From Chryseobacterium nepalense (GTDB lineage Bacteria > Bacteroidota > Bacteroidia > Flavobacteriales > Weeksellaceae), in contig NZ_CP096203.1 in NCBI RefSeq assembly GCF_023195755.1, forward strand, positions 868,001 to 932,000: a stretch of 64,000 nt of DNA. Reading direction: 5' to 3'. The translations under genes were made by a program, and so were the position numbers. Position 1 is the stretch's first letter. Every line of letters starts with the position of its first letter. The notes beneath the pieces are model-generated. The model worked only from the letters and a program-made list of their open reading frames with translations, ran no database searches and was not told the origin of the DNA. Positions 3,872 through 48,727 of the stretch are shown here, one piece after another.

Positions 3872-4993
3872 ATGAGATTTAAACTCCGTACCGAAGAACA
3901 TGATGAAAGAAATATCTACCTTACCGGAAATTTCAACAGCTGGAATCCGAAAGAAGAACAATATAGACTTGATCAGCTGGATCCCGAAAACTATTCCATC
4001 GAAATTAAAGATGAGTTTCTGCCTGAATTAATTGAATATAAATTCACCAAAGGCGGCTGGGAAAATGTGGAGCTCGACCAATACGGAAATATTACACCCA
4101 ACAGAAAGATCAATAAATCCGAAGCTGAAACTTCAGATGTGGTAAAAAAATGGAGACTCAATTGGGGACCTTTTAAAAAAGAGTTTTTTCCTATTGCAGA
4201 AGTTATTTCCGAAGCATTTTATATTCCCCAGCTCGAGCGTCACCGTAAAATCTGGGCCCTTCTCCCCTATGATTATTATGTATCAGGCAAGAGCTATCCG
4301 GTTCTTTATCTTCAGGATGCCCAGAATCTTTTTAATGAAGGAAGTGACTACGGAAACTGGGAGATCGACAAAAAGTTATCTCTGCTGACGGAATACGGAC
4401 GTGGTGATATCATCATCATCGCTATTGAACACGGAAGCGAAGACCGGATAAAAGAATACATTTTTGATAACGATCATATAGCAAACGGCTCTGAAGGCAA
4501 GAAATACATCCGTTTCATCACCGATACGCTTAAACCTTTTGTTGACGAAAACTACCGTACCAAAAAAGACCGGGACAATACCGGAATCGGCGGAAGCTCT
4601 CTGGGAGCACTGATTAGTATTTACAGCGGTTTTCTATATCCTGAAGTATACTCTAAACTGCTTATTTTTTCACCTTCGTTGTGGGTTGAGCCTAACAATA
4701 ATTTCCCAATGATGAATTTCAGGGTTCCTTTTGACATGAAAATTTATTTATATGGCGGAGGTAAAGAAGGCTCTAAAATGGTAAAAAGAATTCATATTTT
4801 CGAAGAATACCTGAAACAATGGGAAAAGAAAAACCTTTTCGATTTCGAATTCAGGACAAGTATAAATCCGGAAGGCACACACAGTGAATTTTACTGGTCT
4901 CAGGAGTTTCCAAGAGCTATCGAATGGCTCTATTATAATAGTAAAGAAAATCCTGTAGAAGTAAAATCCCGGCAAAAAATCAATAAAAATTAA
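3872..4993 (+). CDS. Esterase-D-family alpha/beta hydrolase with N-terminal starch-binding-like domain
   Basis: This 373-residue protein has two parts. Residues 1-95 resemble a CBM20/CBM48 carbohydrate-binding immunoglobulin fold (YLTGNFNSWNP near residue 16). Residues 105-355 are an esterase-D type alpha/beta hydrolase (PF00756) with nucleophile elbow GSSLG (Ser243), the sequence YPVLYLQDAQNLF, and a catalytic His at about residue 337 (GTHSEFYW). No signal peptide is seen, so it should be cytoplasmic. It sits between the divergent glycogen operon and a peptide-ligase cluster, and its stop is 3 bp from the next start, so it is cotranscribed with the M17 aminopeptidase. A glucan-related ester hydrolase and an accessory of the downstream cluster are both possible; the substrate is unknown. 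Confidence 0.8.
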   Translation: MRFKLRTEEHDERNIYLTGNFNSWNPKEEQYRLDQLDPENYSIEIKDEFLPELIEYKFTKGGWENVELDQYGNITPNRKINKSEAETSDVVKKWRLNWGPFKKEFFPIAEVISEAFYIPQLERHRKIWALLPYDYYVSGKSYPVLYLQDAQNLFNEGSDYGNWEIDKKLSLLTEYGRGDIIIIAIEHGSEDRIKEYIFDNDHIANGSEGKKYIRFITDTLKPFVDENYRTKKDRDNTGIGGSSLGALISIYSGFLYPEVYSKLLIFSPSLWVEPNNNFPMMNFRVPFDMKIYLYGGGKEGSKMVKRIHIFEEYLKQWEKKNLFDFEFRTSINPEGTHSEFYWSQEFPRAIEWLYYNSKENPVEVKSRQKINKN

Positions 4994-4996
4994 ATT

Positions 4997-6412
4997 ATGA
5001 AATTATTCAATAAAAAAATAAAAAATTACACCCAGATATTCCATCTTTTTACAGAAGAAGAATGGAACAGAGCTTCTAAAAATTTCAATAAAAATATTAC
5101 TGCTTTTTTCACGGGTAAAAAACACGAAGTGTTTATTAATGTGCAGGATGAAGGAGTTGCCTACTTCATTGGCTTAGGGAAAGAAGATTCACCGGTTTTT
5201 GAAATTCAGCAGATTGCTGTTAAATTCTCTCAGACGCAAAAAGAAAAGCTGATGGCAGTTCCAACATTGGTTGTTGGAGATTTTATGACGGAAAAGCAGT
5301 TTGAGGAATTCACAAAAGGTCTTCTCCTGGGAACATATCGTTATCCTTTTGAGAAAACCCACGCCTTCTGGAATCCAAAATTCGAACTTCATTTTGAAAA
5401 TTTAAGCCAAAAAAAACTGGATATGATCAGTCGAAAGTCTGAAGCGCTGAGCAACGGACAGACTGCGTGTCAGGAATGGCTCAATAAACCTGCAAATCTT
5501 AAAAGACCTGAAACTTTCAGTCTTTATCTAAAAACAATAGCTAAAAAATATAATTTTAAATATACTTCATTCAACAGGAAAAAATGTGAAGAACTGGGCT
5601 TAGGAGCTTACCTTTCGGTAAACCAGGGAAGTGCTTATGATGCTGCTTTTACAATTATTGAATATAAAACTGAGGTTAAAAATTCCAAAACATTCGGGCT
5701 TGTAGGAAAATGTGTTCTTTTCGACACGGGCGGAATTTCCCTGAAAAATCCGGATAATATGCATTATATGAAGTCGGATATGGGTGGGGCGACAGCCGTT
5801 TTAGGAGCCTTAATATATGCAGCAGAAATGCAGCTTCCTGTGAATATCATTGCAATTCTTCCAGTTACAGACAACGCGATTTCTCAGAATGCTTTCCTGC
5901 CAAGCGACGTCATTACAGCCTACAACGGGAAAACCATCGAAGTCCTGAATACAGACGCAGAAGGGAGAATGATTCTTGCAGACGGACTTTCTTACTTATC
6001 AAGAAACTACAAAACAGATATTCTTATTGATCTGGCTACCTTAACAGGCAGTTCGGTAAGAATGTTCGGTGATACCTGCGGAGCGATGTTTTCCAATAAT
6101 GAAGAGCTGAAAAATCTTCTTATAAAAACCGGTGACAAAACCAACCAGCGTCTTTGGAATATGCCACTTTGGGATATCTGGAAAGATGATATCCGTTCTG
6201 ATGTTGCCGATCTTAAAAACGTATCCATGAAACCTATTGGAGACTGTATTGTTGCCGCCAAATTTTTGGAGCAATTCATTGAAAACCATCCAAGATGGGC
6301 ACATCTTGATATTGCCGGAGTGGCTTTCGGAAATGTAGGATATGCCAAAGAAAAAGCAGCTACTGGCTTTGGAGTGCAGTTACTGGCAGATTTAATTGAA
6401 AATTATCACTAA
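4997..6412 (+). CDS. M17 family leucyl aminopeptidase
   Basis: The 471-residue protein is a two-metal aminopeptidase of family M17, which removes N-terminal amino acids from peptides. The catalytic domain shows GKCVLFDTGGISLK (237-250), MKSDMGGA (258-265) and the hallmark NTDAEGR (318-324). By alignment to E. coli PepA the metal ligands would be Lys238, Asp243, Asp261, Asp320 and Glu322, all present. It starts 3 bp after the esterase stop. There is no signal peptide, so it should be cytoplasmic. Downstream ATP-grasp and GCS2-like ligases make a dedicated role in recycling or trimming an amide-linked metabolite plausible, but a general peptidase role fits equally well. Confidence 0.88.
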   Translation: MKLFNKKIKNYTQIFHLFTEEEWNRASKNFNKNITAFFTGKKHEVFINVQDEGVAYFIGLGKEDSPVFEIQQIAVKFSQTQKEKLMAVPTLVVGDFMTEKQFEEFTKGLLLGTYRYPFEKTHAFWNPKFELHFENLSQKKLDMISRKSEALSNGQTACQEWLNKPANLKRPETFSLYLKTIAKKYNFKYTSFNRKKCEELGLGAYLSVNQGSAYDAAFTIIEYKTEVKNSKTFGLVGKCVLFDTGGISLKNPDNMHYMKSDMGGATAVLGALIYAAEMQLPVNIIAILPVTDNAISQNAFLPSDVITAYNGKTIEVLNTDAEGRMILADGLSYLSRNYKTDILIDLATLTGSSVRMFGDTCGAMFSNNEELKNLLIKTGDKTNQRLWNMPLWDIWKDDIRSDVADLKNVSMKPIGDCIVAAKFLEQFIENHPRWAHLDIAGVAFGNVGYAKEKAATGFGVQLLADLIENYH

Positions 6413-6515
6413 AAATTAGTTTATTACAAAAATTCTCTGTATAATTGAAACAGTATTTTCAAAATTGTATTTTATTTTAAATTTTAACACTAAATAAACA
6501 AATAAAAACAACTTT

Positions 6516-6523
6516 TATTTTTG
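6516..6523 (+). promoter_or_regulatory. Promoter -7 element TATTTTTG before the ligase operon
   Basis: TATTTTTG matches TAnnTTTG and lies 29 bp before the ATG at 6553 in a 140-bp AT-rich gap after the aminopeptidase. No good -33 TTG was found at the expected distance, so this is a moderate call. Confidence 0.45.
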
Positions 6524-6552
6524 AAAATTCATCAAAAACTAAAAAACATTAT

Positions 6553-7764
6553 ATGGAGAAGAAAACAATAGTATGTATTTCGTGCTATTATAAGGGGTAT
6601 GACTTCATGGATGAAATGAAAAACCTCGACAACAAGGTAATTTTGGTGACTTCCGAAAACCTGAAGGAAAAAAACTGGCCATGGCATGCTATCGATGAGG
6701 TTTTCTATATGCCCGAGCTAAAACCTTCCGTTTGGAATCTTGATCATCTTATCCAGGGCTTTTCCCACCTCATGCAGACGAGAAAAGTGGATGCTGTGGT
6801 TGCCCTTGATGATTATGATGTAGAAAAAGCAGCTCTGATCCGTGAAACATTCCGTATTCCCGGGATGGGCCAGACCACGCACCGATATTTCAGAGATAAA
6901 TTGGCGATGAGGCAGAAAGCAAAGGATTCTGGAATCAATGTTCCCGAATTTACAGCTGTTTTCAATAATGATGAAGTAAACCTTTTTGTTGATAAAGTAT
7001 CTCCTCCATGGGTACTGAAACCCCGCTCCGAAGCCTCTGCATCCGGCATCAAAAAACTGGCATCCAAAGAAGACCTTTGGGAAGAACTCAATAAACTTGG
7101 TGAAGAACGGCATTTATTTCTGCTGGAAAGCTTTAAGCCCGGCGATGTATATCATGTTGACAGTCTGACTTTTAATAAAGAAACGACTTTCACTTCCGCT
7201 TCAAAATATTTAGCACCACCCATGCAGGTTTCTCATGAAGGCGGTGTTTTCAGGACAAAAACCCTGGGAAGATATTCCGATGAATTTAAAGCTCTTGAGG
7301 CTGCCAATATAAAAGTCCTTTCCAGCTTTGGACTGATGCACGGTGCAACCCACACAGAGTTCATCAAAAGTAACGAAGACGACAAATATTATTTTCTTGA
7401 AACTTCTTCACGTGTGGGAGGCGCCCATATTCCTGATCTGGTAGAAGCATCAAGCAGCATCAATATATGGAGAGAATGGGCCAGAATTGAGGACGCTTTG
7501 TTAAAGGGGAAACACTACGAAGTTTCAAAACCTACAGGATACTATTCGGGATTAATTATTGCTTTGATCAAAAACAAAAATCCTGATTATGAAGAATTTG
7601 AAAGTCCGGAAACTGTAAAATTCTTACCCATTGAACATCATGTAGGAATTGTTTACAAATCCAATGATCCTATCATTATTCAGGAAAGGCTTGACAGCGC
7701 TGCAGAGAAAATCCTTGCCGAAATGCTGAATATTCTTCCTCCTAAAAGTAAACCGACAAGCTGA
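6553..7764 (+). CDS. ATP-grasp carboxylate-amine ligase (biotin-carboxylase-like type)
   Basis: This 403-residue protein has an N-terminal Rossmann-like preATP-grasp domain (VVALDDYDVEKAAL, residues 82-95) and an ATP-grasp domain with the lysine strand PWVLKPRSEASASG (152-165), the acidic strand HTEF (Glu269) and FLETSSRVGG (281-290). The last motif normally reads ExNxR; here the metal-ligand Asn is Ser285, although Glu269 and Glu283 remain. Members of this branch form amide bonds between amino acids or peptides through an acyl phosphate. It leads a compact series (6553-11529) with a hydrolase, another ATP-grasp enzyme, a GCS2-like ligase and a glutamine amidotransferase. The substrate cannot be read from the sequence. 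Confidence 0.85.
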   Translation: MEKKTIVCISCYYKGYDFMDEMKNLDNKVILVTSENLKEKNWPWHAIDEVFYMPELKPSVWNLDHLIQGFSHLMQTRKVDAVVALDDYDVEKAALIRETFRIPGMGQTTHRYFRDKLAMRQKAKDSGINVPEFTAVFNNDEVNLFVDKVSPPWVLKPRSEASASGIKKLASKEDLWEELNKLGEERHLFLLESFKPGDVYHVDSLTFNKETTFTSASKYLAPPMQVSHEGGVFRTKTLGRYSDEFKALEAANIKVLSSFGLMHGATHTEFIKSNEDDKYYFLETSSRVGGAHIPDLVEASSSINIWREWARIEDALLKGKHYEVSKPTGYYSGLIIALIKNKNPDYEEFESPETVKFLPIEHHVGIVYKSNDPIIIQERLDSAAEKILAEMLNILPPKSKPTS

Positions 7765-7804
7765 GAAGTTAGCGAAAATAATTGATTATCATTCACAATA
7801 CAAT

Positions 7805-8518
7805 ATGCCACATATAGAACATACAGATTATTATTCACATATTTTGGGAACAAGCATCAAAGTGGAAGTTACCGGACATTACGGCTACCCAATTATTATG
7901 TTTCCTACCTCACAGGGGCTTTATACACAAAACCACGATTTTCAACTGAACGGAAGTATCAACTGGTTTGTGGAGCAGGGAAAGGTTAAACTTTATAATA
8001 TCCAGACTATCGACAGCTGGAGCTTTTATGATGATAATATTCCGCCTCACCATAGAATTAAAAACTATGAAAGATACGTCCAGTTTCTGATTCAGGAATT
8101 TGTACCCTATATTCAAAAAATTCATAAAACTCATCGCGTTGCGGTTGCAGGAGCAAGTTTCGGGGGCTATCATGCGGCTAATTTTGCTTTCAGGTTTCCG
8201 GATGTTGTCTCGCATCTGTTCTGCCTTTCGGGCGCTTTCAGTATCAGAAATTTCATGGAAGGATATTCCGATGATCTCGTGTATTTTAATTGTCCGAGAG
8301 AATTTGTAAAGAATGATGAAGCCTGGAAATACAAGCATATGCATATTGTACTAAGTACTTCCGACCAGGACATCTGCAGGGATAAAAACATTGAAATGGC
8401 GGAAATCCTGCGTTCCAAAGGAATTGACTTCTGGTATGATGAAAGAAAATGGATTAACCACGACTGGCCACTGTGGAGAATGGTTTTCCCAACATTTATC
8501 GGAGCATTTTTCTCTTAA
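7805..8518 (+). CDS. Esterase family alpha/beta hydrolase
   Basis: The 237-residue protein belongs to the esterase-D-like (PF00756) alpha/beta hydrolases. The nucleophile elbow is GASFGG (Ser118), the likely acid is near Asp188 (TSDQD), and the likely His is 219 (WINHDW). There is no signal peptide. It sits between two ATP-grasp ligases, 40 bp after the first and 38 bp before the second, so it is probably part of the same transcript. In amidoligase clusters such hydrolases may release, transfer or proofread the product; whether it is an esterase, amidase or acyltransferase cannot be told here. Confidence 0.82.
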   Translation: MPHIEHTDYYSHILGTSIKVEVTGHYGYPIIMFPTSQGLYTQNHDFQLNGSINWFVEQGKVKLYNIQTIDSWSFYDDNIPPHHRIKNYERYVQFLIQEFVPYIQKIHKTHRVAVAGASFGGYHAANFAFRFPDVVSHLFCLSGAFSIRNFMEGYSDDLVYFNCPREFVKNDEAWKYKHMHIVLSTSDQDICRDKNIEMAEILRSKGIDFWYDERKWINHDWPLWRMVFPTFIGAFFS

Positions 8519-8556
8519 ATTTAAAAATACGATTAACAAATATTAAAAAATAGATT

Positions 8557-9510
8557 ATGGTTAAAAAAGTTGGAATACTATTCGGAATGGAAGATACTTT
8601 TCCCTGGGCATTTATTGATAAGGTAAATGAACTCGGTAAAGGCGAAATTATTGCAGAACCGGTAAGTATTGATAAACTTGAACAAGGCGCAGATTACGGA
8701 TATGCCGTAATTATTGACAGAATTTCCCAGGATGTTCCGTTTTACAGAGCTTATCTTAAAAATGCTGCATTAAATGGTACCTATGTCATCAATAACCCGT
8801 TTTGGTGGAGTGCCGATGAAAAGTTTTTCAATAATGCTCTGATGACAAAACTTGGGATCCCATTACCTAAAACCGTACTGCTTCCTTCTTATGAAAGACC
8901 GGAGAACACTTCGGAAACATCTTTCAGAAATTTAAAATTTCCTCACGACTGGGATTATATTTTTAATTACGTAGGTTTTCCAGCTTACATGAAACCTCAC
9001 GATGGCGGAGGATGGAGAAATGTATACCGCGTAGAAAGTCCTGAAGATCTTTGGGCAAAGCATTCGGAAACAGAACAGCTGGTGATGATGGTACAGGAAG
9101 AAATAATTTTTGATGATTATTACAGAGTATATTGTCTGGGTAAAAAATATGTTCACATTATGCCCTATGAACCCCGAAACGTACACCATCTACGATATGC
9201 AACAACGCATAAAACCCAGGGTGAAGAGCTGGAAAAATTATTAAAAACCATTCATGATTATACCATTACAATGAATGAAGCCTTAGGCTATGATTTCAAT
9301 ACGGTAGAATTTGCCGTGCGGGACGGAATTCCTTACGCCATCGACTTCTGCAATCCTGCCCCGGATGCAGACAGGAATTCTGTAGGTGAAGAAAACTTTG
9401 CATGGATTGTTGAGCATGCCGCAAAACTTGCTCTGGAAAAAGCAAAAGAATACGTTCCGGGAAAACCGAATATCTCCTGGGGAACTTTCGTAAAAGATTC
9501 TGTACAATAA
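8557..9510 (+). CDS. ATP-grasp ligase, RimK/glutathione-synthetase-like
   Basis: This 317-residue protein shows a second, different ATP-grasp type. Visible motifs are the lysine strand FPAYMKPHDGGGWRNVYRV (141-159), with a glycine-rich loop, and the metal-binding end VEFAVRDGIPYAIDFCNP (250-267), with Glu251, Asp263 and Asn266 all in place. The N-terminus (KKVGILFGMEDTFPWAFIDKV) is a preATP-grasp domain. Enzymes of this kind join an amino acid to a carboxylate with ATP. It is 27 bp upstream of the GCS2-like ligase. All catalytic positions appear intact, unlike the Asn-to-Ser change in the 6553 ligase. The substrate is unknown. Confidence 0.84.
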   Translation: MVKKVGILFGMEDTFPWAFIDKVNELGKGEIIAEPVSIDKLEQGADYGYAVIIDRISQDVPFYRAYLKNAALNGTYVINNPFWWSADEKFFNNALMTKLGIPLPKTVLLPSYERPENTSETSFRNLKFPHDWDYIFNYVGFPAYMKPHDGGGWRNVYRVESPEDLWAKHSETEQLVMMVQEEIIFDDYYRVYCLGKKYVHIMPYEPRNVHHLRYATTHKTQGEELEKLLKTIHDYTITMNEALGYDFNTVEFAVRDGIPYAIDFCNPAPDADRNSVGEENFAWIVEHAAKLALEKAKEYVPGKPNISWGTFVKDSVQ

Positions 9511-9537
9511 AAAAACATTAAATAAACACGAAAAAAA

Positions 9538-10659
9538 ATGCATCAATTTACTATTGGAATCGAAGAAGAGTATCAAATCATTGATGTTGAGAGCCGTGAC
9601 CTGGTCTCTCATGTTTCGAAAATTATCGAAGGCGGAAAAGCCGTTTTAAGCGAAAACTTAAAGCACGAAATGCACGAATCCATGATCGAAATGGAAACGG
9701 GAATCTGCCAGAATATCCAGGAAGCCAAAACGGAATTAACCAACCTGAGAAGACATCTTATCAAAACAGCCCATGAACAGGGACTTCGCGTTTCCGGCGG
9801 GGGAACACATCCTTTTTCAAACTGGGAACACAACACCATTACCAACGGCGAACGATATATCAAAATCGTTGATGACATGGGCGATGTGGCACGTGGAAAT
9901 CTTATTTTCGGGCTGCACGTTCATATCGGAATTCCAAACCGTGAAGAAGGAGTGAGAATACAGAATGTGATGCGATATTTTCTTCCGCACGTTTATGCGC
10001 TGTCTACCAATTCACCATTCTGGATCGGAAGAAATACCGGTTTCAAGTCTTACAGACAGGAAATTTTCGTAAAATTCCCAAGAACCGGGATTCCAAGCTT
10101 TTTTAATTCCCTGGCTGAGTTCGATAGCTATGTGGATCTTCTGGTGAAAACAGGAACCATAGACAATGCCAAGAAGATATGGTGGGATCTTCGGGTTCAT
10201 CCGTTTTACCCTACCATTGAATTCAGGATTTGCGATATGCCTTTAAGAATAGATGAAACCGTTTGCTTAGCTGCAATTATGCAGTCTCTTGTAGCAAAAA
10301 TTTATAAACTTCATCAGCAGAATTTAAGTTTCAGGAGCTATAGAAGGTTATTGCTGAACGAAAATAAATGGAGAGCATCCAAAAGCGGAATAGAAGCGCA
10401 TCTTATCGATTTCGGGAAAGAAGAATCCGTACCGTATCCGGATCTTCTGAAGGAACTCCTTGAATTTATTGATGATGTGGTAGACGAATTGGGATGCAGG
10501 AAAGAAGTAGAATATGCATGGACCATTCTTGAAAACGGAACGGGTGCAGACCGCCAGCTCAGAATATTTAATGAAACCGGCGATCTTACAAAAGTTGTTG
10601 ATTATATGATCTCTGAAACAGAATACGGCATTACTCATGGAGAAGTTTTACATTCATAA
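9538..10659 (+). CDS. Carboxylate-amine ligase, YbdK/GCS2 family
   Basis: The 373-residue protein belongs to the glutamate-cysteine ligase GCS2-like family (YbdK type). It opens with TIGIEEEYQIID, the acidic metal-binding strand of the family, followed by EMETGICQN, RVSGGGTHPF (84-93) and GLHVHIG (125-131), and EFRICDMPLR further on. Enzymes of this fold couple a gamma- or alpha-carboxylate to an amine using ATP and Mg2+. It lies between an ATP-grasp ligase and a class I glutamine amidotransferase, which suggests several successive amide-forming steps on one molecule. E. coli YbdK has weak gamma-glutamylcysteine ligase activity, but nothing here shows a glutathione role. Confidence 0.9.
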   Translation: MHQFTIGIEEEYQIIDVESRDLVSHVSKIIEGGKAVLSENLKHEMHESMIEMETGICQNIQEAKTELTNLRRHLIKTAHEQGLRVSGGGTHPFSNWEHNTITNGERYIKIVDDMGDVARGNLIFGLHVHIGIPNREEGVRIQNVMRYFLPHVYALSTNSPFWIGRNTGFKSYRQEIFVKFPRTGIPSFFNSLAEFDSYVDLLVKTGTIDNAKKIWWDLRVHPFYPTIEFRICDMPLRIDETVCLAAIMQSLVAKIYKLHQQNLSFRSYRRLLLNENKWRASKSGIEAHLIDFGKEESVPYPDLLKELLEFIDDVVDELGCRKEVEYAWTILENGTGADRQLRIFNETGDLTKVVDYMISETEYGITHGEVLHS

Positions 10660-10666
10660 TATTTGA

Positions 10667-10674
10667 TACATTTG
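10667..10674 (+). promoter_or_regulatory. Possible internal promoter TACATTTG
   Basis: TACATTTG (TAnnTTTG type) lies 18 bp before the ATG at 10693 in a 33-bp gap. It could give the glutamine amidotransferase gene an extra transcription start inside the operon. There is no convincing -33 element. Confidence 0.35.
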
Positions 10675-10692
10675 TATAAAATTTGAGATAAG

Positions 10693-11529
10693 ATGAAGGA
10701 TATTCGAATTGCTTTGCTGGATATGAATAATAATCAGATCAACCAGGGATTTAAAAATATTAAAGAAATTTCTGAAACCTTCAGGCAAAGCTGTACCGGG
10801 GAAAATGTAAGCATCACGACATTTGATGTGAGGTTTAAAAATGAAATTCCCGATATTGAAGATTTCGACATATTTATTTCTTCCGGAGGTCCCGGAAATC
10901 CGCACCGTGAAGGGTTTGAATGGGAAGATAGATTCAGTGCTTTTTTAGATTCAATTCACAATCACAACCGGATCAGCCAGAAGAAGAAATACCTTTTTTT
11001 AATCTGCCATTCTTTTCAGCTGGCAAGCATTCACTGGAAGCTGGGAAATATCTGTAAAAGAAAATCCTATTCATTCGGTGTAATGCCCATTCATAAAACA
11101 GAGGAGGGCGAAGAAGAATTTTTATTTAAAAATCTCCCGGATCCTTTCTACGCGGTGGATTCCCGTGCCTATCAGTTTATAGAACCGGACCATGAGCGGT
11201 TTGAAGAGCTGGGAATGAAAATTACTGCGATTGAAAAATTCCGTCCTCATATTGATCTGGAAAGAGCGGTAATGGCTGTGCGGTTTTCTGAGGAAATCTT
11301 CGGTACACAGTTTCATCCTGAAGCGAATCCTGAAGGAATGATTGAAAACCTGAAAGATGAAAAAAACAAATTGGCTATGATTGAAAATTTCGGAATGGAA
11401 AAGTATCTTGAAACCATCGAAAGAATTGATGATGAAGATAAAATTACCCTTACGCAGTCCCAGATTTTACCGAGATTTTTAGATTTTGCAAAGCAAAATA
11501 TTATCAACAGAGTAAATGTTCTGATTTAG
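10693..11529 (+). CDS. Class I glutamine amidotransferase (GMP-synthase-like)
   Basis: The 278-residue protein is a stand-alone triad-type glutamine amidotransferase. Asp/Gly-rich ISSGGPGNP (63-70) is followed by the nucleophile strand LFLICHSFQ, with Cys105, and by FGTQFHPEANPEG, with His208 and Glu210, so the Cys-His-Glu triad is intact. Such enzymes release ammonia from glutamine and pass it to a partner synthetase. No synthetase domain is fused, so the partner must be separate; the neighbouring ATP-grasp and GCS2-like ligases are the obvious candidates. A tail of about 60 residues follows the domain. A rho-independent terminator at 11550 ends the transcript. Confidence 0.86.
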   Translation: MKDIRIALLDMNNNQINQGFKNIKEISETFRQSCTGENVSITTFDVRFKNEIPDIEDFDIFISSGGPGNPHREGFEWEDRFSAFLDSIHNHNRISQKKKYLFLICHSFQLASIHWKLGNICKRKSYSFGVMPIHKTEEGEEEFLFKNLPDPFYAVDSRAYQFIEPDHERFEELGMKITAIEKFRPHIDLERAVMAVRFSEEIFGTQFHPEANPEGMIENLKDEKNKLAMIENFGMEKYLETIERIDDEDKITLTQSQILPRFLDFAKQNIINRVNVLI

Positions 11530-11549
11530 CAAAATATAGTTAGTAACAT

Positions 11550-11574
11550 AATCGGGCGATCGTCCGATTTTTTT
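11550..11574 (+). terminator. Rho-independent terminator after the ligase operon
   Basis: AATCGG and CCGATT arms enclose a CGATCG core, and a T run follows. It separates the amidotransferase from the next colinear gene at 11596. Confidence 0.75.
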
Positions 11575-11595
11575 AAATTACAACGAAAAAAGATT

Positions 11596-12780
11596 ATGAT
11601 TTCAGAATACAGAAAAAAGTTTAATCAGGAATTTTCGCAGGAAAAATATGCTCAGCTTAAAGAATATCTAAAGCAAAAAAGCGGACTGGAACCGGCATTC
11701 AGAATTTCTGAAAGTCCTTTATTCCTTACCAAAGATTTTGAAGCTAAACTGATCAATGCGAGCAAAAGTATTATTAATCAGATAAAAGCTTTATCCCCGG
11801 ATATTTTACAAAAAGCTGTTCCTGATAATTGCAGAGTTCCAAATGATACGGAAAAACCGCATTTTTTCACCATCGACTTCGGAATCTGTAAAAATGAAAC
11901 GGGAGAAGTGGAACCGCAATTAATTGAGCTTCAAGCTTTCCCTTCTTTATACGCTTTTCAAAAAGTTTTTGAAGATGCCTTCTGCGAAATTTATCCTTTC
12001 CTTTCTGAATTGAAAAATACAATGTCTCCTGACAATTTTAAAAACCATTTCAAAGATCTTATTATTGGAGACGAAAATCCGGAAAATGTTATCCTTCTGG
12101 AAATTTATCCTGAAAAGCAGAAAACAGCCATCGATTTTGTCCTGACAGAACAATTACTTGGAATAAAAACGGTTTGCCTTACCAAAGTAAAAAAGAACGG
12201 AAAAAAACTTTATTATGAGAATAATGGAAAATTAACCGAAATTAAAAGGATTTATAACCGTGTTATCTTTGATGAATTAGATCGGATTCCGGACCTGAAA
12301 ACTGAATTCGATTTCCGGGAAGATGTTGATGTAAAATGGATTACCCATCCCAACTGGTTTTTCAAAATTTCAAAATTTTTACTGCCTCTTTTACAACATC
12401 AATTTGTTCCGAAAAGTTATTTCCTGCATGAATTTCCCGAAACAGAGGATTTGAAAAATTTTGTTTTAAAGCCGTTGTTTTCTTTTGCCGGAAGCGGGGT
12501 GAATCTAAATCCTACGAAAGAAATTACAGATGCCATTGAAGATAAACAAAACTACATCCTGCAGAGAAAAGTAGACTATGCTCCTATTTTTGAGGATATC
12601 AACGGAGATTATTCGAAAGCAGAGATTCGTTTATTATATATCTGGCCTGAAAATAATGAAAGCCCGATTCTGATGGAGAATTTAGCAAGAATGACTAAGG
12701 CAGCGATGGTAAACGTCGATTTCAATAAAAAAGATGCCATCTGGATCGGAAGCTCGAATGCTTTTTTTGCGAAGGAATAG
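11596..12780 (+). CDS. ATP-grasp-like protein of unknown substrate (possibly circularly permuted type)
   Basis: I do not recognise this 394-residue protein as a named family. Visible features recall the glutathionylspermidine-synthase-like, circularly permuted ATP-grasps: an early acidic strand IELQAFPSLY (110-119), RIYNRVIFDEL (218-228), a lysine strand with a glycine-rich loop NFVLKPLFSFAGSGVNL (288-304), YILQRKVDY (320-328), AEIRLLYIW (342-350) and ENLARM (361-366). It has no signal peptide. It starts 66 bp after the amidotransferase, beyond a terminator, and its 3' end meets cphA. Position and motifs suggest one more amide ligase of the same pathway. The ligase call is inference; the gene itself is real. 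Confidence 0.65.
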   Translation: MISEYRKKFNQEFSQEKYAQLKEYLKQKSGLEPAFRISESPLFLTKDFEAKLINASKSIINQIKALSPDILQKAVPDNCRVPNDTEKPHFFTIDFGICKNETGEVEPQLIELQAFPSLYAFQKVFEDAFCEIYPFLSELKNTMSPDNFKNHFKDLIIGDENPENVILLEIYPEKQKTAIDFVLTEQLLGIKTVCLTKVKKNGKKLYYENNGKLTEIKRIYNRVIFDELDRIPDLKTEFDFREDVDVKWITHPNWFFKISKFLLPLLQHQFVPKSYFLHEFPETEDLKNFVLKPLFSFAGSGVNLNPTKEITDAIEDKQNYILQRKVDYAPIFEDINGDYSKAEIRLLYIWPENNESPILMENLARMTKAAMVNVDFNKKDAIWIGSSNAFFAKE

Positions 12781-12807
12781 TTTACTAAACTATAATAAAA
12801 GTTAGAA

Positions 12808-12839
12808 AAATTTCGGCATCTTCGATGCCGCCGAAATTT
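12808..12839. terminator. Bidirectional terminator between the 11596 gene and cphA
   Basis: AAATTTCGGCATC pairs with GATGCCGCCGAAATTT around a TTC loop (one arm has three extra bases). It lies in the 87-bp gap between the convergent genes. Confidence 0.7.
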
Positions 12840-12867
12840 ATAGAAATCCAAAACTTTAGAAATATAA

Positions 12868-15498
12868 TTATAGCATTTTATCGTCTTCCATTAATTCCCT
12901 GGTCTGATAATCCTGAACCAGATCAATTGCATTAGATATAACGTCGCTTAAGGCAGTGATAAAAGTACCTTCTTCAGCCATTCCCATTGCATGTTTCAGG
13001 GCTTCAATTTCTTTAGGAATAATTTCATAGCTTACATCTTTGCCCGAAGACTGCATACCTTCTATAATAAGTCCGTTAATTTCATCTTCCGTACGTCCGC
13101 GGAGATGCTTCTCATTTCGAATGATGATATGGTCAAACATTCTTCCTGCGATCTTTCCACACTCTTTAATATCACTATCCCTTCTGTCTCCTACCCCTGA
13201 AATAATCCCGATTTTTTTCGTTGCTTCAATATTTTTGAGATAATCTTCAATTGCTTCATAACCCGATGGATTGTGTGCGAAATCAATCAGCACCTTGAAA
13301 TTTTTAAACTTAAATACATTCAAACGTCCCGGAGTAAGCTGTGCACTTGGAATAAAAGTCCGTAAAGAATTGGAAATATCTTCAATCCCGAATCCATATA
13401 AATAACAGGCAAGACTCGCAGCCAGTACATTTTCAATCATGAATTTAGCCTTACCTTCCATGGTAATCGGAAAATCCTTTGCCTTGCCGATTCTTATTTT
13501 CCAGTCTCCTTTCTTGATTGTAACAAAACCTTCCTCATAAATACAGGTAATACGTCCTTCTTTCGCGAATTTCTGGATGTGCGGATTATTTTCATTCATA
13601 CTGAAAATGGCAACATGGCTATCCAGGTCATTAACAATTTTCATGGAATATTCATTATCTGCATTCAGAATACTCCACCCGTTTTTCTTTACACTATCGA
13701 GCACTACTCTTTTTACACGGGTAAGATCTTTAAGGTTATGAATATCATTCATGCCGAGATGATCCTCTTCAATATTGGTTAAAACCCCAATATCACATTG
13801 AGAAAATCCGAGCCCGGAACGTAAAATTCCGCCACGCGCAGTCTCAAGCACCGCAAACTCTACGGTAGGGTCTTTTAGAATAAACTCTGCAGAAAGCGGT
13901 CCTGTAGTATCGCCTTTCGACAGCATGGTATTCTGAATATAAATTCCGTCTGAAGTCGTAAAGCCAACTCTGTAGCCGTTACTTTTTACGATGTGTGAAA
14001 TAAGTCTTGTGGTGGTAGTCTTACCGTTGGTTCCCGTAACCGCAATAATCGGAATGGTAAAAGGTTTTCCCGGAGGATACAGCATATCTACTACTGGTGC
14101 GGCAACGTTTCTCGGCAATCCTTCGCTTGGCGCCAGATGCATTCTGAATCCCGGTGCGGCATTAACCTCAATGATGGCACCTCCACTTTCTTTTAAAGGC
14201 TGGGTAAGGTTTTCAGCCATAATATCAATTCCACAGACATCAAGACCGATAATTTTGGAAATTCTTTCAGCCATGGTAATGTTTTCAGGATGTATCATAT
14301 CTGTTACATCAATCGACGTACCTCCGGTTGAAAGATTGGCGGTAGATTTCAGATAAACGACCTCCCCTTTCTGGGGAACCGTTTCCAGGGTGTAGTTCAG
14401 TTTTTCCAAAAGCTCGGTGGTATCTTTATCAACCTCGATTTCCGTTAAAACATTTTCGTGTCCGTACCCTCTTCTCGGATCTTTATTTTCTTTTTCTATC
14501 AGTTGCTGAAGATTCAATTCCCCGTCGCCGACAACATGGGCGGGAACTCTTCTGGCAGCAGCCACCATTTTATTATTAATGACCAGCACCCTGAAATCAT
14601 ATCCTGTAATATACTTTTCTACAATTACTTTTTTGGAATATTTCTGGGCATGTTCCAGTCCGATTTTGGCAGATTCCCAATCATTGACATTTATAGAAGA
14701 TCCCTTTCCGTGATTTCCATCCAGAGGTTTAATAACCACGGGATATCCAATTTTTCGTACAACGCTGTCAAGTCCTTCTTCATCCATAATAAGATCTCCC
14801 ATAGGCACAGGAATCGCAGCATCATGCAGCATTCTTTTGGTAAGTTCTTTATTGCAGGCGATATCTACGGCAATAGAGCTTGTTTTTCCGGTAATGGTTG
14901 CCTGGAATCTCTGCTGGTTCACCCCATATCCAAGCTGTACCAAAGAGTTTGTCCCTAAACGGATCCAGGGGATTTTTCTGGAAACCGCTTCTTCTACAAT
15001 GCTTCCGGTAGAAGGTCCTAAACGAACCCTTTCACGGATTTCTTTAAGCTTCTGGATACAGGCGTTAAGATCATACTCCTCCCCTTTAATCAAAGCTTCT
15101 GCAATTTTTACAGATTCTTCCCCTGCAAAAATTCCGGCATTTTCTTCAATATAATTAAATACGACATTATAAACCCCGGGTGTTTTAGTCTCCCGCGTTC
15201 TTCCAAAGCCAACTTCCATTCCGGCAAGAGTCTGGATTTCCAGGGCGATGTGTTCAATAACGTGGCCCATCCATGTTCCCGTCTCAACGCGATGAAAAAA
15301 ACCTCCTTCCACTCCTTCGGAACATCTGTGAGTAAATAAAGAAGGCAATAACTTTTCTATTCTTTCTCTAAATCCTTCGATTTTATTAGTAGGAAAATTT
15401 TCCATCTCTTCCAGATCCAACCTCATCTGTATCAGCTTCTTTCGTCTGATACTCCAAATGTTCGGGCCGCGCAATGCCTGTATTTTTTCAATTTTCAT
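12868..15498 (-). CDS. cphA: Cyanophycin synthetase
   Basis: The 876-residue protein polymerises aspartate and arginine into cyanophycin, a nitrogen store with a poly-Asp backbone and Arg side branches. The N-terminal domain has HVIEHIALEIQTLAG and FGRTRETKTPG (about 79-108). The ATP-grasp domain (about 220-480) has VVIKPLDGNHGKG (254-266) and AIIEVNAAPGFRMH (441-454). The Mur-ligase-like domain has the P-loop VTGTNGKTTTT (487-497), ETARGGILR (552-560) and NIEEDHLG (575-582). Length and domain order match CphA1. The ATG at 15496-15498 faces cphB across a 198-bp divergent gap. Convergent with the ligase cluster, it forms a complete module with cphB and iaaA. Confidence 0.95.
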   Translation of the reverse strand: MKIEKIQALRGPNIWSIRRKKLIQMRLDLEEMENFPTNKIEGFRERIEKLLPSLFTHRCSEGVEGGFFHRVETGTWMGHVIEHIALEIQTLAGMEVGFGRTRETKTPGVYNVVFNYIEENAGIFAGEESVKIAEALIKGEEYDLNACIQKLKEIRERVRLGPSTGSIVEEAVSRKIPWIRLGTNSLVQLGYGVNQQRFQATITGKTSSIAVDIACNKELTKRMLHDAAIPVPMGDLIMDEEGLDSVVRKIGYPVVIKPLDGNHGKGSSINVNDWESAKIGLEHAQKYSKKVIVEKYITGYDFRVLVINNKMVAAARRVPAHVVGDGELNLQQLIEKENKDPRRGYGHENVLTEIEVDKDTTELLEKLNYTLETVPQKGEVVYLKSTANLSTGGTSIDVTDMIHPENITMAERISKIIGLDVCGIDIMAENLTQPLKESGGAIIEVNAAPGFRMHLAPSEGLPRNVAAPVVDMLYPPGKPFTIPIIAVTGTNGKTTTTRLISHIVKSNGYRVGFTTSDGIYIQNTMLSKGDTTGPLSAEFILKDPTVEFAVLETARGGILRSGLGFSQCDIGVLTNIEEDHLGMNDIHNLKDLTRVKRVVLDSVKKNGWSILNADNEYSMKIVNDLDSHVAIFSMNENNPHIQKFAKEGRITCIYEEGFVTIKKGDWKIRIGKAKDFPITMEGKAKFMIENVLAASLACYLYGFGIEDISNSLRTFIPSAQLTPGRLNVFKFKNFKVLIDFAHNPSGYEAIEDYLKNIEATKKIGIISGVGDRRDSDIKECGKIAGRMFDHIIIRNEKHLRGRTEDEINGLIIEGMQSSGKDVSYEIIPKEIEALKHAMGMAEEGTFITALSDVISNAIDLVQDYQTRELMEDDKML

Positions 15499-15682
15499 AG
15501 TCTATTTGCATTTTTAATAGTTAACAATAACTGCATTTAAAATCAAAGATAATGCAAAACCCTAAACAAAACTATACCACGTTTGAATATTTATTAAAAA
15601 TAATCATTCTTTAGTATTCATTCTAAAATCCTCAAAATCAATTTTATGTACCCTGAAATTTTTTCAGCTGTTAATATTTTTT

Positions 15683-15690
15683 TAAATTTG
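15683..15690 (+). promoter_or_regulatory. Promoter -7 element TAAATTTG for cphB
   Basis: TAAATTTG fits TAnnTTTG and ends only 6 bp before the chosen cphB ATG at 15697, which implies a nearly leaderless mRNA. An in-frame ATG at 15646 lies upstream of this element, which argues against that ATG as the start. Confidence 0.5.
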
Positions 15691-15696
15691 CAGCCT

Positions 15697-16587
15697 ATGA
15701 CGAAACCTGTTGGAAAATTAATTGTAATTGGTGGTGCAGTAAACAAAGGAAGTTTTGCAGAAACCGATTTTGATCAGAATATAGAAAAAAACCTGAATTT
15801 TTTTGAGCGAGGAATACTTAGAAAAATCATCAACGAGTCTAAGCATAAGGAAAACTCTGTAATTGAAATTATTACGACAGCGTCGCAGATTCCTCAGATT
15901 GTTGGCTCCGAATATAAAAAAGCCTTTGAATTTTTAGGGGCAAAAAATGTAAATATTCTGGATATTCATAACCGTGAAGAAGCCAATTCTGATGCAATTG
16001 TCGCAAGAGCAAATGCGGCCGACGTGGTGATGTTTACGGGCGGAGATCAGCTTCGTCTTACATCTATTCTGGGCGGAACAAGATTTCACGATACCATTTT
16101 ACTGAAGTATCAGGAACAGGATTTCATTTATTCCGGAACTTCTGCCGGTGCTGCTGCTGCGTCTGAAAACATGATTTATCAGGGAAGCAGTTCTGAAGCA
16201 TTGCTCAAAGGCGAAATTAAAACCACACAGGGACTAGGACTGATCGACAATGTCATTATTGATACGCATTTTGTACAGAGAGGAAGAATCGGAAGACTGT
16301 TCCAGGCTGTGGTAAATAATCCGAGAACACTGGGAATCGGGCTTGGAGAAGATACCGGTCTGTTTATTTATAATGATGTAATGACGGCCGTAGGTTCCGG
16401 ACTGGTAATTCTGGTTGACGGAAGATTCATTAAAGATACCAATCTTACGAATATTAACCTTGGAGAACCGATTTCTATTGATAACCTCACGGTGCACGTG
16501 ATGTCCATGAATGATCATTATGACCTTACAACAAAGGTGCTGACAATAGAAAATTCACAATTTAATCCTATTCCGCAGGAAAAATAG
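15697..16587 (+). CDS. cphB: Cyanophycinase
   Basis: This 296-residue peptidase of family S51 cuts cyanophycin into beta-Asp-Arg dipeptides. It starts MTKPVGKLIVIGGAVNKG and has FTGGDQ (113-118), the nucleophile elbow GTSAGA with Ser149, and the substrate-site sequence DTHFVQRGR (189-197). There is no signal peptide, so it is the intracellular type. An ATG 51 bp upstream (15646) is in frame, but its 17 extra residues are unlike the family and overlap the promoter element, so I start at 15697. It is divergent from cphA and is followed after 96 bp by iaaA, which would split the released dipeptides. Confidence 0.93.
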   Translation: MTKPVGKLIVIGGAVNKGSFAETDFDQNIEKNLNFFERGILRKIINESKHKENSVIEIITTASQIPQIVGSEYKKAFEFLGAKNVNILDIHNREEANSDAIVARANAADVVMFTGGDQLRLTSILGGTRFHDTILLKYQEQDFIYSGTSAGAAAASENMIYQGSSSEALLKGEIKTTQGLGLIDNVIIDTHFVQRGRIGRLFQAVVNNPRTLGIGLGEDTGLFIYNDVMTAVGSGLVILVDGRFIKDTNLTNINLGEPISIDNLTVHVMSMNDHYDLTTKVLTIENSQFNPIPQEK

Positions 16588-16683
16588 CAAATCATATTTT
16601 TCAACGAATATTAATTATCATTCGCAAAATCATAACCGGTTTTGAAAAATTTGGCTATCTTGTCTTCTAAATAACAATATACA

Positions 16684-17526
16684 ATGAAGGTAATCATTCA
16701 CGGTGGATTCTTTTCAGAAAGCGATCAGAGTCATGAGGTAAAAACTGCCAAACAGGAGTCTCTGAAAAATATTGCAAAACAGGCTTTTGATTTTTTACAA
16801 ACCCATTCTGCTTTTGACACCGCTGCTTTTGCTGTTTCTTTACTGGAAAATGACGAACTGTACAACGCTGGTATCGGTTCCCAGATTCAAAGTGACGGAA
16901 TTATCAGGATGAGTGCTGCAATTATGAATGGCGAAACCCAGAAAATGAGCGGTGTGATCAATATTCAGGATGTAAAAAATCCTGTTTTTGTAGCGAAGGA
17001 ACTGATGAAAGAAGACGACAGGGTTCTGGGAGGTAGTGGTGCTAAAAAGTATGCTGCAGCCCATGGTTTTGAAAATTTTTCAACTGAAATCCCAAAAAGA
17101 AGACAGGAATATGAGGAAAAATTAAGCAACGGCGGAAAAGGAACCGTTGGTTGTGTGGTAATTGATAAAAGCGGAAAATTAGCCGTTGCTACCTCCACCG
17201 GAGGAAAAGGATTTGAAATCCCCGGGAGAATTTCGGATTCTGCAACTGTAGCCGGAAATTATGCCAATTCTTTCTGTGCTGTAAGCTGTACGGGAGTGGG
17301 AGAAGATATTGTAAGTAATGCAACAGCAGCGAAAATTGTTACAAGAGTAACTGATGGAATGTCCCTTAGCGAAGCTTTTGACAAAACCTTTGACGAACTG
17401 AAAACAATAGACGGATTTGCAGGCGCTATTGCAATTGATAAAGATGGAAATCTCGCCCACAGAGATTCTCACCCGACTATGGTTTTTGCAAGTTTTGACG
17501 GTGAAAATTTAGAAACCTTCAATTAA
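16684..17526 (+). CDS. iaaA: Isoaspartyl peptidase / plant-type asparaginase (Ntn hydrolase)
   Basis: The 280-residue precursor belongs to the Ntn-hydrolase asparaginase family T2, which self-cleaves before a threonine to give two subunits. The cleavage site GGKG-TVGCVV puts the nucleophile at Thr154; STGGKGFEIPGRISD (171-185) is the usual substrate loop, and NAGIGSQ is in the alpha part. It is a little shorter than the usual 310-320 residues. In cyanophycin users this enzyme hydrolyses beta-Asp-Arg to aspartate and arginine. Its place 96 bp after cphB supports that role. Plain asparaginase activity may also occur. Confidence 0.9.
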   Translation: MKVIIHGGFFSESDQSHEVKTAKQESLKNIAKQAFDFLQTHSAFDTAAFAVSLLENDELYNAGIGSQIQSDGIIRMSAAIMNGETQKMSGVINIQDVKNPVFVAKELMKEDDRVLGGSGAKKYAAAHGFENFSTEIPKRRQEYEEKLSNGGKGTVGCVVIDKSGKLAVATSTGGKGFEIPGRISDSATVAGNYANSFCAVSCTGVGEDIVSNATAAKIVTRVTDGMSLSEAFDKTFDELKTIDGFAGAIAIDKDGNLAHRDSHPTMVFASFDGENLETFN

Positions 17527-48560: not shown

Positions 48561-48626
48561 AGGAGCTTTTTCGCGCTTTCCGCTGCAATCTTTTTTTCAA
48601 AAAGGATTTTCGCTGCAATCACGGCT
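48561..48626 (-). repeat. Dispersed Flavobacteriaceae-type intergenic element, copy A
   Basis: On the minus strand it reads AGCCGTGATTGCAGCG, then a short hairpin of ATCCTTTTT against AAAAAGAT, then GATTGCAGCGGAAAGC and GAAAAAGCTCC. GATTGCAGCG occurs twice, exactly 30 bp apart. The gap 48497-48894 has no gene. Confidence 0.7.
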
Positions 48627-48727
48627 AGGATTTTTGTCGGGAATAGAATTAGTTTTAAAAATATTGATCACAAGCCTTTTTTAGATTAATGTTTTTTGAC
48701 ACCCGTCAAAAATTTTTGAATTTTTGC

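Follow-up and report, generated by a model that had tools for sequence, protein, structure and literature searches.

Positions 3872 to 17526 of a 64,000-nucleotide stretch of Chryseobacterium nepalense DNA (contig NZ_CP096203.1, positions 868,001 to 932,000; the whole stretch is referred to below as the window) hold genes for the synthesis and breakdown of cyanophycin next to a cassette of ligase genes. We consider it probable that two unrelated modules lie side by side here: module A, a cyanophycin unit (cphA, cphB and iaaA), and module B (3872–12780), a pathway for the stepwise, ATP-driven ligation of small acids and amines. This reading is based on the gene families and predicted folds, on conserved residues of catalytic type, on the co-inheritance of the ligase genes and on the absence of a general tie between them and cphA. 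The features of the region are as follows.

3872..4993, plus strand: estD, PF00756 esterase with a weak CBM48-like N-terminus; opens the co-directional run
4997..6412, plus strand: M17 leucyl-aminopeptidase-type peptidase (PF00883, 349 bits against a cut-off of 25)
6553..7764, plus strand: P1, ATP-grasp ligase of the L-amino-acid-ligase kind (from solved relatives)
7805..8518, plus strand: P2, PF00756 alpha/beta hydrolase, esterase (39.4 bits against 22)
8557..9510, plus strand: P3, RimK/LysX/Ddl-like ATP-grasp ligase, hallmark of the cassette (from the predicted fold)
9538..10659, plus strand: P4, GCS2 (YbdK-type) carboxylate-amine ligase (PRK13515, 534.8 bits against 371)
10693..11529, plus strand: P5, class-I glutamine-amidotransferase-fold protein with Cys-His-Glu kept (PF00117, 44.4 bits against 22.8)
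11550..11569, plus strand: terminator-like hairpin in the gap between P5 and P6 (pattern scan)
11596..12780, plus strand: P6, ATP-grasp ligase with the fold of YgiC, glutathionylspermidine synthetase and eukaryotic glutathione synthetase (from the predicted model)
12814..12830, minus strand: terminator-like hairpin in the gap of the convergent P6 and cphA (pattern scan, gap sequence)
12868..15498, minus strand: cphA, cyanophycin synthetase 1 with an intact Cx19HxxEH N-domain site (TIGR02068, 1269 bits against 850)
15646..16587, plus strand: cphB, cyanophycinase (TIGR02069, 224.4 bits against 126.6)
16684..17526, plus strand: iaaA, compact (280 aa) isoaspartyl-peptidase-type N-terminal nucleophile (Ntn) hydrolase (PF01112, 254 bits against 27)

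An earlier reading of the window from its letters alone (the sequence-only reading) had listed nine of these genes, P1 to P6, cphA, cphB and iaaA, within 11 kb. All nine are real genes at the coordinates given, each with a family or a fold, but their arrangement needs correction. The co-directional run begins at 3872 and not at 6553: it comprises eight genes (estD to P6) separated by gaps of 3–140 bp, with estD and the M17 gene, 3 bp apart, lying upstream of P1 on the same strand. cphA does not belong to the ligase operon, since it lies on the minus strand and is convergent with the ligase genes, 87 bp from P6; cphB and iaaA point away from it. The two hairpins are pattern matches only, and the one between P5 and P6 might hold P6 at a lower level. 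Curated cut-offs are passed by CphA, CphB, P4 and P5, as well as by IaaA (PF01112) and P2 (PF00756). The three ATP-grasp proteins P1, P3 and P6 are below every curated cut-off and were assigned via sub-threshold hits, solved relatives and predicted folds.

Distribution of the ligase cassette and of cphA

Co-occurrence was counted in 158 genomes, the phylum of which was taken as Bacteroidota from the titles of named relatives. Protein-search cut-offs were E 0.001 for P3 and P6, 1e-10 for P2, 1e-20 for P1, P4, P5 and cphB, 1e-15 for iaaA, 1e-50 for cphA and 1e-60 for M17. M17 positions refer to the best hit per P1 genome, plus G068, and those of cphB and iaaA to the best hits in cphA genomes. 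All counts are of genomes and not of independent events, kinship being handled only by a table of 86 genera (14 with full-length cphA; P2 left out). P3 was found in 62 genomes, P2 in 67, P4 in 55, P6 in 52, P5 in 43, P1 in 35 and cphA in 21. Three of the latter (G044, G048 and G129; 28–32% identity over 1191–1788 bases) were set aside, giving 18 genomes with full-length cphA.

P3 and full-length cphA occur together in 10 genomes, P3 alone in 52, cphA alone in 8 and neither in 88 (p 0.2). By genus, the association with cphA (phi) is −0.05 for P3, −0.04 for P4, 0.12 for P5 (p 0.37), −0.04 for P6 and −0.15 for P1. P3 and cphA are 4.3–5.0 kb apart in three of the 10 genomes that have both, all three from the window's genus, and on different contigs in the other seven, which is not in itself proof of distance (in G096, for instance, the contig ends 1.5 kb from P3).

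Gene order was examined in named loci, the best 80 of at least 583 confirmed P3 relatives from a P3-alignment scan; all titles read as Bacteroidota, and the named set may leave out the genomes nearest to the window. cphA lies downstream of P6 in 11 of the 80 (10 Chryseobacterium and one Halpernia). Among the 13 loci titled Chryseobacterium it is present in 10, and the remaining three end 267–424 bases past P6. Nine more loci share the P1–P6 order and show no cphA within the 5.9–6.8 kb available past P6; they come from Elizabethkingia, Epilithonimonas (2), Kaistella (3), Soonwooa, Cruoricaptor and one 'Flavobacteriaceae bacterium'. Neither cphA nor cphB nor iaaA is found in the available flanks of a further 56 loci (L089–L144), which extend at least 5 kb past P6 in 41 of the 49 with P6. 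Conversely, seven loci (L049–L055) have cphA, cphB and a compact iaaA but show no gene of the cassette. The sequence-only reading had named, as what would refute it, a wide occurrence of the ligase genes without cphA and of cphA without them, at unrelated loci, and this is the pattern seen in the 158 genomes. Cassette and cphA were found side by side only in Chryseobacterium and Halpernia. These observations suggest that the adjacency is a local feature of the Chryseobacterium–Halpernia lineage and not a sign of one pathway.

The ligase genes, in contrast to their loose relation to cphA, are inherited with one another. P4 and P6 occur together in 50 genomes, P4 alone in 5, P6 alone in 2 and neither in 101 (phi 0.90), and the corresponding numbers by genus are 39, 2, 2 and 43 (phi 0.91). 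In the 50 genomes with both, the two genes are within 6 kb of each other in 30, on the same contig but more than 20 kb apart in 4, and on different contigs in 16, some of which are perhaps assembly breaks. Co-inheritance of P4 and P6, even where they are dispersed, argues for one pathway, with shared ancestry controlled by the genus table only. P3 and P6 are found together in 50 genomes, P3 alone in 12, P6 alone in 2 and neither in 94. The counts for P2 and P3 (60 both, 7 P2 only, 2 P3 only, 89 neither) are overstated and are not leaned on, because many P2 hits are paralogues of 28–35% identity located away from the cassette.

Of the 80 named loci, 69 have the complete P2–P6 set, always in the same order and on a single strand; contig ends truncate several of the remaining 11. 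The P3 of C. daeguense is 95% identical to that of the window and lies in the same gene order. A hairpin similar by eye to the one in the window's P5–P6 gap, with a varying loop, was seen in four Chryseobacterium loci (L070, L072, L073 and L074). P1 and M17 form a second sub-module. P1 was not found (E 1e-20) in 27 of the 62 P3 genomes; of the 35 P1 genomes, 11 have M17 no more than 6 kb away from P1. The pair precedes P2 in 23 of the first 24 named loci (L065–L088), the remaining one being a short contig. In seven of the 56 loci L089–L144, including ones from Flavobacterium, Polaribacter and Winogradskyella, P1 is in view downstream of P6 instead. It is on the opposite strand in five of the seven and on the same one in two, and the visible flank also includes M17 in six and an estD-type esterase in three. 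Both the estD-type esterase and M17 thus recur near P1 in some other genera.

The composition of the cassette varies in a few loci. An M29-type peptidase stands between P4 and P6, where the window has the amidotransferase, in L029 (7850–8866) and L033 (11295–12320). In L023 (10142–11557), L024 (10075–11430) and L043 (8628–10052) the place of the GCS2 ligase, between P3 and P5, is taken by a circularly permuted ATP-grasp-like protein; the three form one BLAST cluster, and the Pfam hits of the L024 copy, the sole one run, are below cut-off. Four similar small open reading frames beside the L043 cassette were considered as substrate peptides and rejected, as they look like a repeated element read as open reading frames. 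In L016 an esterase divergent from the cassette (11962–13518) carries a fused DinB_2 domain, which gives weak mycothiol-transferase hits.

Enzymes of the two modules

Module A is, to judge from its gene families and their recurrence, an ordinary cyanophycin storage and recovery unit. The window CphA matches the solved SuCphA1 (7lg5) with E 1.1e-298, and its C59, H79, E82 and H83 make up the Cx19HxxEH motif, which is present in 16 of 18 fetched relatives. PMC9262961 describes this N-domain site as giving primer-independent cyanophycin synthesis; since the window CphA carries it, an external primer would not be needed. Of the 18 cphA genomes, 16 have cphB no more than 6 kb from cphA, and 14 have a gene of the IaaA family at most 6 kb from cphB (including L049–L055, L058–L060 and L062). 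Ten of these 14 IaaA proteins are compact (280–281 aa; 299 aa for one whose reading begins further upstream), and the other four have 306–310 aa. As the trio recurs without the ligases, the proposal of the sequence-only reading that cphA, cphB and iaaA make up a set for storing and recovering Asp and Arg is supported.

In alignments that include E. coli IaaA (2zak), Thr154 of the window IaaA falls on the first residue of the solved beta subunits, and the GTVG motif with the nucleophilic Thr is kept in this protein and in all 15 IaaA-family proteins compared, two of which are not beside cphA. The window protein scores 136.5 bits with the NCBIfam beta-aspartyl-peptidase equivalog NF007589, the cut-off of which is 567; it is therefore IaaA-like by family and place, and a putative counterpart of the E. 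coli enzyme.

P1 of module B has L-amino acid ligases as its nearest solved relatives (best 4wd3, E 6.4e-24, residues 72–330), and no Pfam model gave it a score above cut-off. For P3, the predicted model has a mean predicted local distance difference test (pLDDT) score of 92, and the top Foldseek hits are Ddl, LysX/ArgX and the peptide cyclase PsnB; its similarity to the RimK family is below cut-off. P4 passes the PRK13515 equivalog cut-off and has YbdK 1r8g and 1tt4 as its nearest solved structures. It stays under the glutamate-cysteine ligase equivalog cut-offs, with 65.2 bits against 249 for TIGR02048 and 21.1 against 463 for TIGR01436.

The P6 model (pLDDT 91, predicted template modelling score 0.90) is closest to E. 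coli YgiC (VIA Z 26.4, 3.4 Å, 341 of 394 residues), glutathionylspermidine synthetase GspSA (Z 25.3, 3.8 Å, 344 residues) and eukaryotic glutathione synthetases (for the human enzyme Z 24.1, 3.8 Å, 364 residues), with identities of 10–14% to these chains in the best structural alignments. The Z score then drops to 12.3 for 3k1t, a putative gamma-glutamylcysteine synthetase, and to at most 8.2 for LysX, Ddl and other ATP-grasp chains. No Pfam family is above cut-off for P6, glutathionylspermidine synthase (PF03738) reaching 17.6 bits against 29.3. The protein that the sequence-only reading listed as a further ATP-grasp-like one is therefore assigned the glutathionylspermidine/glutathione-synthetase fold.

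P5 has both the class-I amidotransferase score and the triad, C105, H208 and E210 being invariant across 20 aligned sequences. By family and triad it is a predicted class-I glutamine amidotransferase, for which ammonia transfer and hydrolysis are both possible. In P2, G116, G120 and D189 are invariant and S118 and H219 nearly so (15 aligned sequences). estD matches PF00756 with E 7.4e-23, and its CBM_48 match (E 0.058) is below cut-off; the gene is divergent from two genes read as glgB and glgA. Nothing in these alignments points to a dead enzyme, but substrates are not readable from them. A role of module B in anti-phage defence was rejected, as none of the eight proteins of 3872–12780 gave a hit to PADLOC models at E 0.001. 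Among 72,556 plasmid records, P3 and P6 had no match at E 1e-5, and P4 and IaaA had only relatives of less than 60% identity. Elsewhere in the window, a Flavo-1 RNA (RF01705, 65 bits against 42) lies at 48565–48630 on the minus strand.

Proposed pathway and alternatives

In module A, the self-priming CphA1 would polymerise Asp and Arg, CphB would free beta-Asp-Arg dipeptides and the compact IaaA would split them. In module B, the GCS2 ligase P4 may form a gamma-glutamyl or similar amide for extension by P6, whose fold is glutathione-synthetase-like; more residues could be added by P3, which resembles RimK and LysX, and by P1, which resembles L-amino acid ligases. P5 would either provide ammonia for a terminal amide or cut the gamma-glutamyl bond, and the esterases and the aminopeptidase might trim or recycle. 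We infer every activity, substrate and product in this scheme, as well as the order of its steps. Our best guess from the families and models is that the product of module B would be a small gamma-glutamyl-type peptide or amide. The sequence-only reading had offered a separate amide-rich metabolite as one alternative, and of its suggestions this is the one that remains. A bolder version, which we put forward tentatively and regard as possible but doubtful, is that at least one third of Bacteroidota possess an unrecognised pathway beside that of bacillithiol, in which P4 and P6 would build a gamma-glutamyl tripeptide-like core that the ATP-grasp ligases and the amidotransferase elaborate to an amidated product. 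If true, it would mean a second, independently assembled 'glutathione-type' chemistry in Bacteroidota.

The sequence-only reading had also suggested that the ligases could build a primer, a cap or a derivative of cyanophycin; in that case, 3872–17526 would be one functional unit. The tight neighbourhood, with cphA after P6 in the Chryseobacterium and Halpernia loci, and the L-amino acid ligases as nearest solved relatives of P1 speak for such a unit, and several further observations weigh against separate modules. P5 is the sole gene associated with cphA by genome (10 both, 33 P5 only, 8 cphA only, 107 neither; p 0.009), an association that by genus falls to the phi and p given above. In G072 (L016, 15190–18350) an IaaA homologue (32%) and a cyanophycinase (44%) start 3.3 and 5.5 kb beyond the cassette, with cphA on another contig; among the cassette loci fetched from outside the window's genus, no other has a cphB. 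In G013 an IaaA homologue (32%; L023, 14885–15874) is convergent with P1 beside a cassette variant, and a search of that genome at E 1e-50 gave no cphA. Other points bear on the chemistry proposed for module B: the genomes of L023, L024 and L043 are without P6, with P4 absent or elsewhere, and in G037 and G064, which have P3, P5 and P6, P4 was not found at E 1e-20. Because of the L023, L024 and L043 variants, a gamma-glutamyl core may not be universal. Modification of cyanophycin nevertheless appears very unlikely to us. Full-length cphA is missing from 52 of the 62 P3 genomes and P3 from 8 of the 18 cphA genomes, so that the two occur nearly independently; seven of the 10 genomes with both have them on different contigs; the nine loci of the same eight- or seven-gene order show no cphA in the 5.9–6.8 kb past P6; CphA keeps its self-priming motif; and P6 and cphA are convergent with a terminator-like hairpin between them. 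The tempting link between the ligases and cyanophycin thereby loses support.

Two further alternatives concern module B itself. It could make a glutathione-like low-molecular-weight thiol that serves as a redox buffer, P4 joining Glu and Cys and P6 adding the third residue. A GCS2 ligase co-inherited with a glutathione-synthetase-like fold is what such a pathway would need, and the DinB_2-fused esterase of L016 and the cassette carrier G109, which is without a bshC match, point the same way. Against this, P4 is closest to YbdK and its kin and stays under the glutamate-cysteine ligase cut-offs, and gshA-B are reported (PMC6282198) from Cyanobacteria, Proteobacteria, one actinobacterium and eukaryotes. 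Of the 158 genomes, 156 carry the bacillithiol gene bshC, among them every P3 genome but G109. The comparison gave little contrast because bshC is so widespread; nearly all cassette carriers probably make bacillithiol, so the cassette product is less likely to be the main thiol, and we regard this explanation as unlikely. Even less credit is given to a peptide-tagging or protein-modifying system, in which P3, like RimK or tubulin-tyrosine-ligase kin, would add residues that the peptidases remove. The sub-threshold RimK similarity of P3 fits it, as does the pairing of ligases with peptidases (M17 near P1, and the M29-type enzyme that L029 and L033 have between P4 and P6). However, GCS2 and L-amino-acid ligases act on small molecules, and a tag gene would not fit into the window's intergenic gaps of 3–140 bp, which is as far as the search for one went. 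Ligation of small acids and amines in a module separate from cyanophycin remains our preferred reading.

Relation to known systems

The ligase cassette falls in the broad class of amidoligase neighbourhoods of Iyer et al. 2009 (Mol BioSyst; cited in PMC4431377), which reportedly combine ATP-grasp and glutamine-synthetase-like ligases with peptidases and hydrolases. A literature search, with most subscription journals outside its reach, returned no title or abstract on this cassette. One problem left by the analysis is the product of a multi-ligase cassette found in at least one third of the Bacteroidota genomes sampled.

Like the glutathione pathway, YgiC and glutathionylspermidine synthetase, the cassette pairs a GCS2-family ligase with a glutathione-synthetase-like fold. 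It differs from the glutathione pathway in that P4 is under the glutamate-cysteine ligase cut-offs, P6 shares only 10–14% identity with the solved chains and bacillithiol genes are present in nearly all carriers. P1 resembles the L-amino acid ligases (4wd3, 3vot, BacD), aligning over residues 72–330 with 4wd3, and is absent (E 1e-20) from 27 of the 62 P3 genomes.

Module A has its counterparts in the clusters surveyed by Sharon and Schmeing (2023, PMC10206079), which likewise have cphA1 beside a cyanophycinase with an IaaA-family gene nearby. The second problem left concerns the last step of cyanophycin breakdown in Bacteroidota: that survey states that the isoaspartyl dipeptidase of Firmicutes and Bacteroidota is still undiscovered, and IadA and/or IaaA are given there for 22.1% of 86 cphA1-bearing Bacteroidota genomes. 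In our sample, 14 of the 18 cphA genomes have a gene of the IaaA family no more than 6 kb away from cphB, ten of them the compact type. PF01112-type relatives of the window IaaA are found in 95 of the 158 genomes, so the gap from the published figure may reflect search sensitivity, which weighs against novelty. The compact IaaA encoded beside cphB is nonetheless a direct and ready candidate for the isoaspartyl dipeptidase of Bacteroidota.

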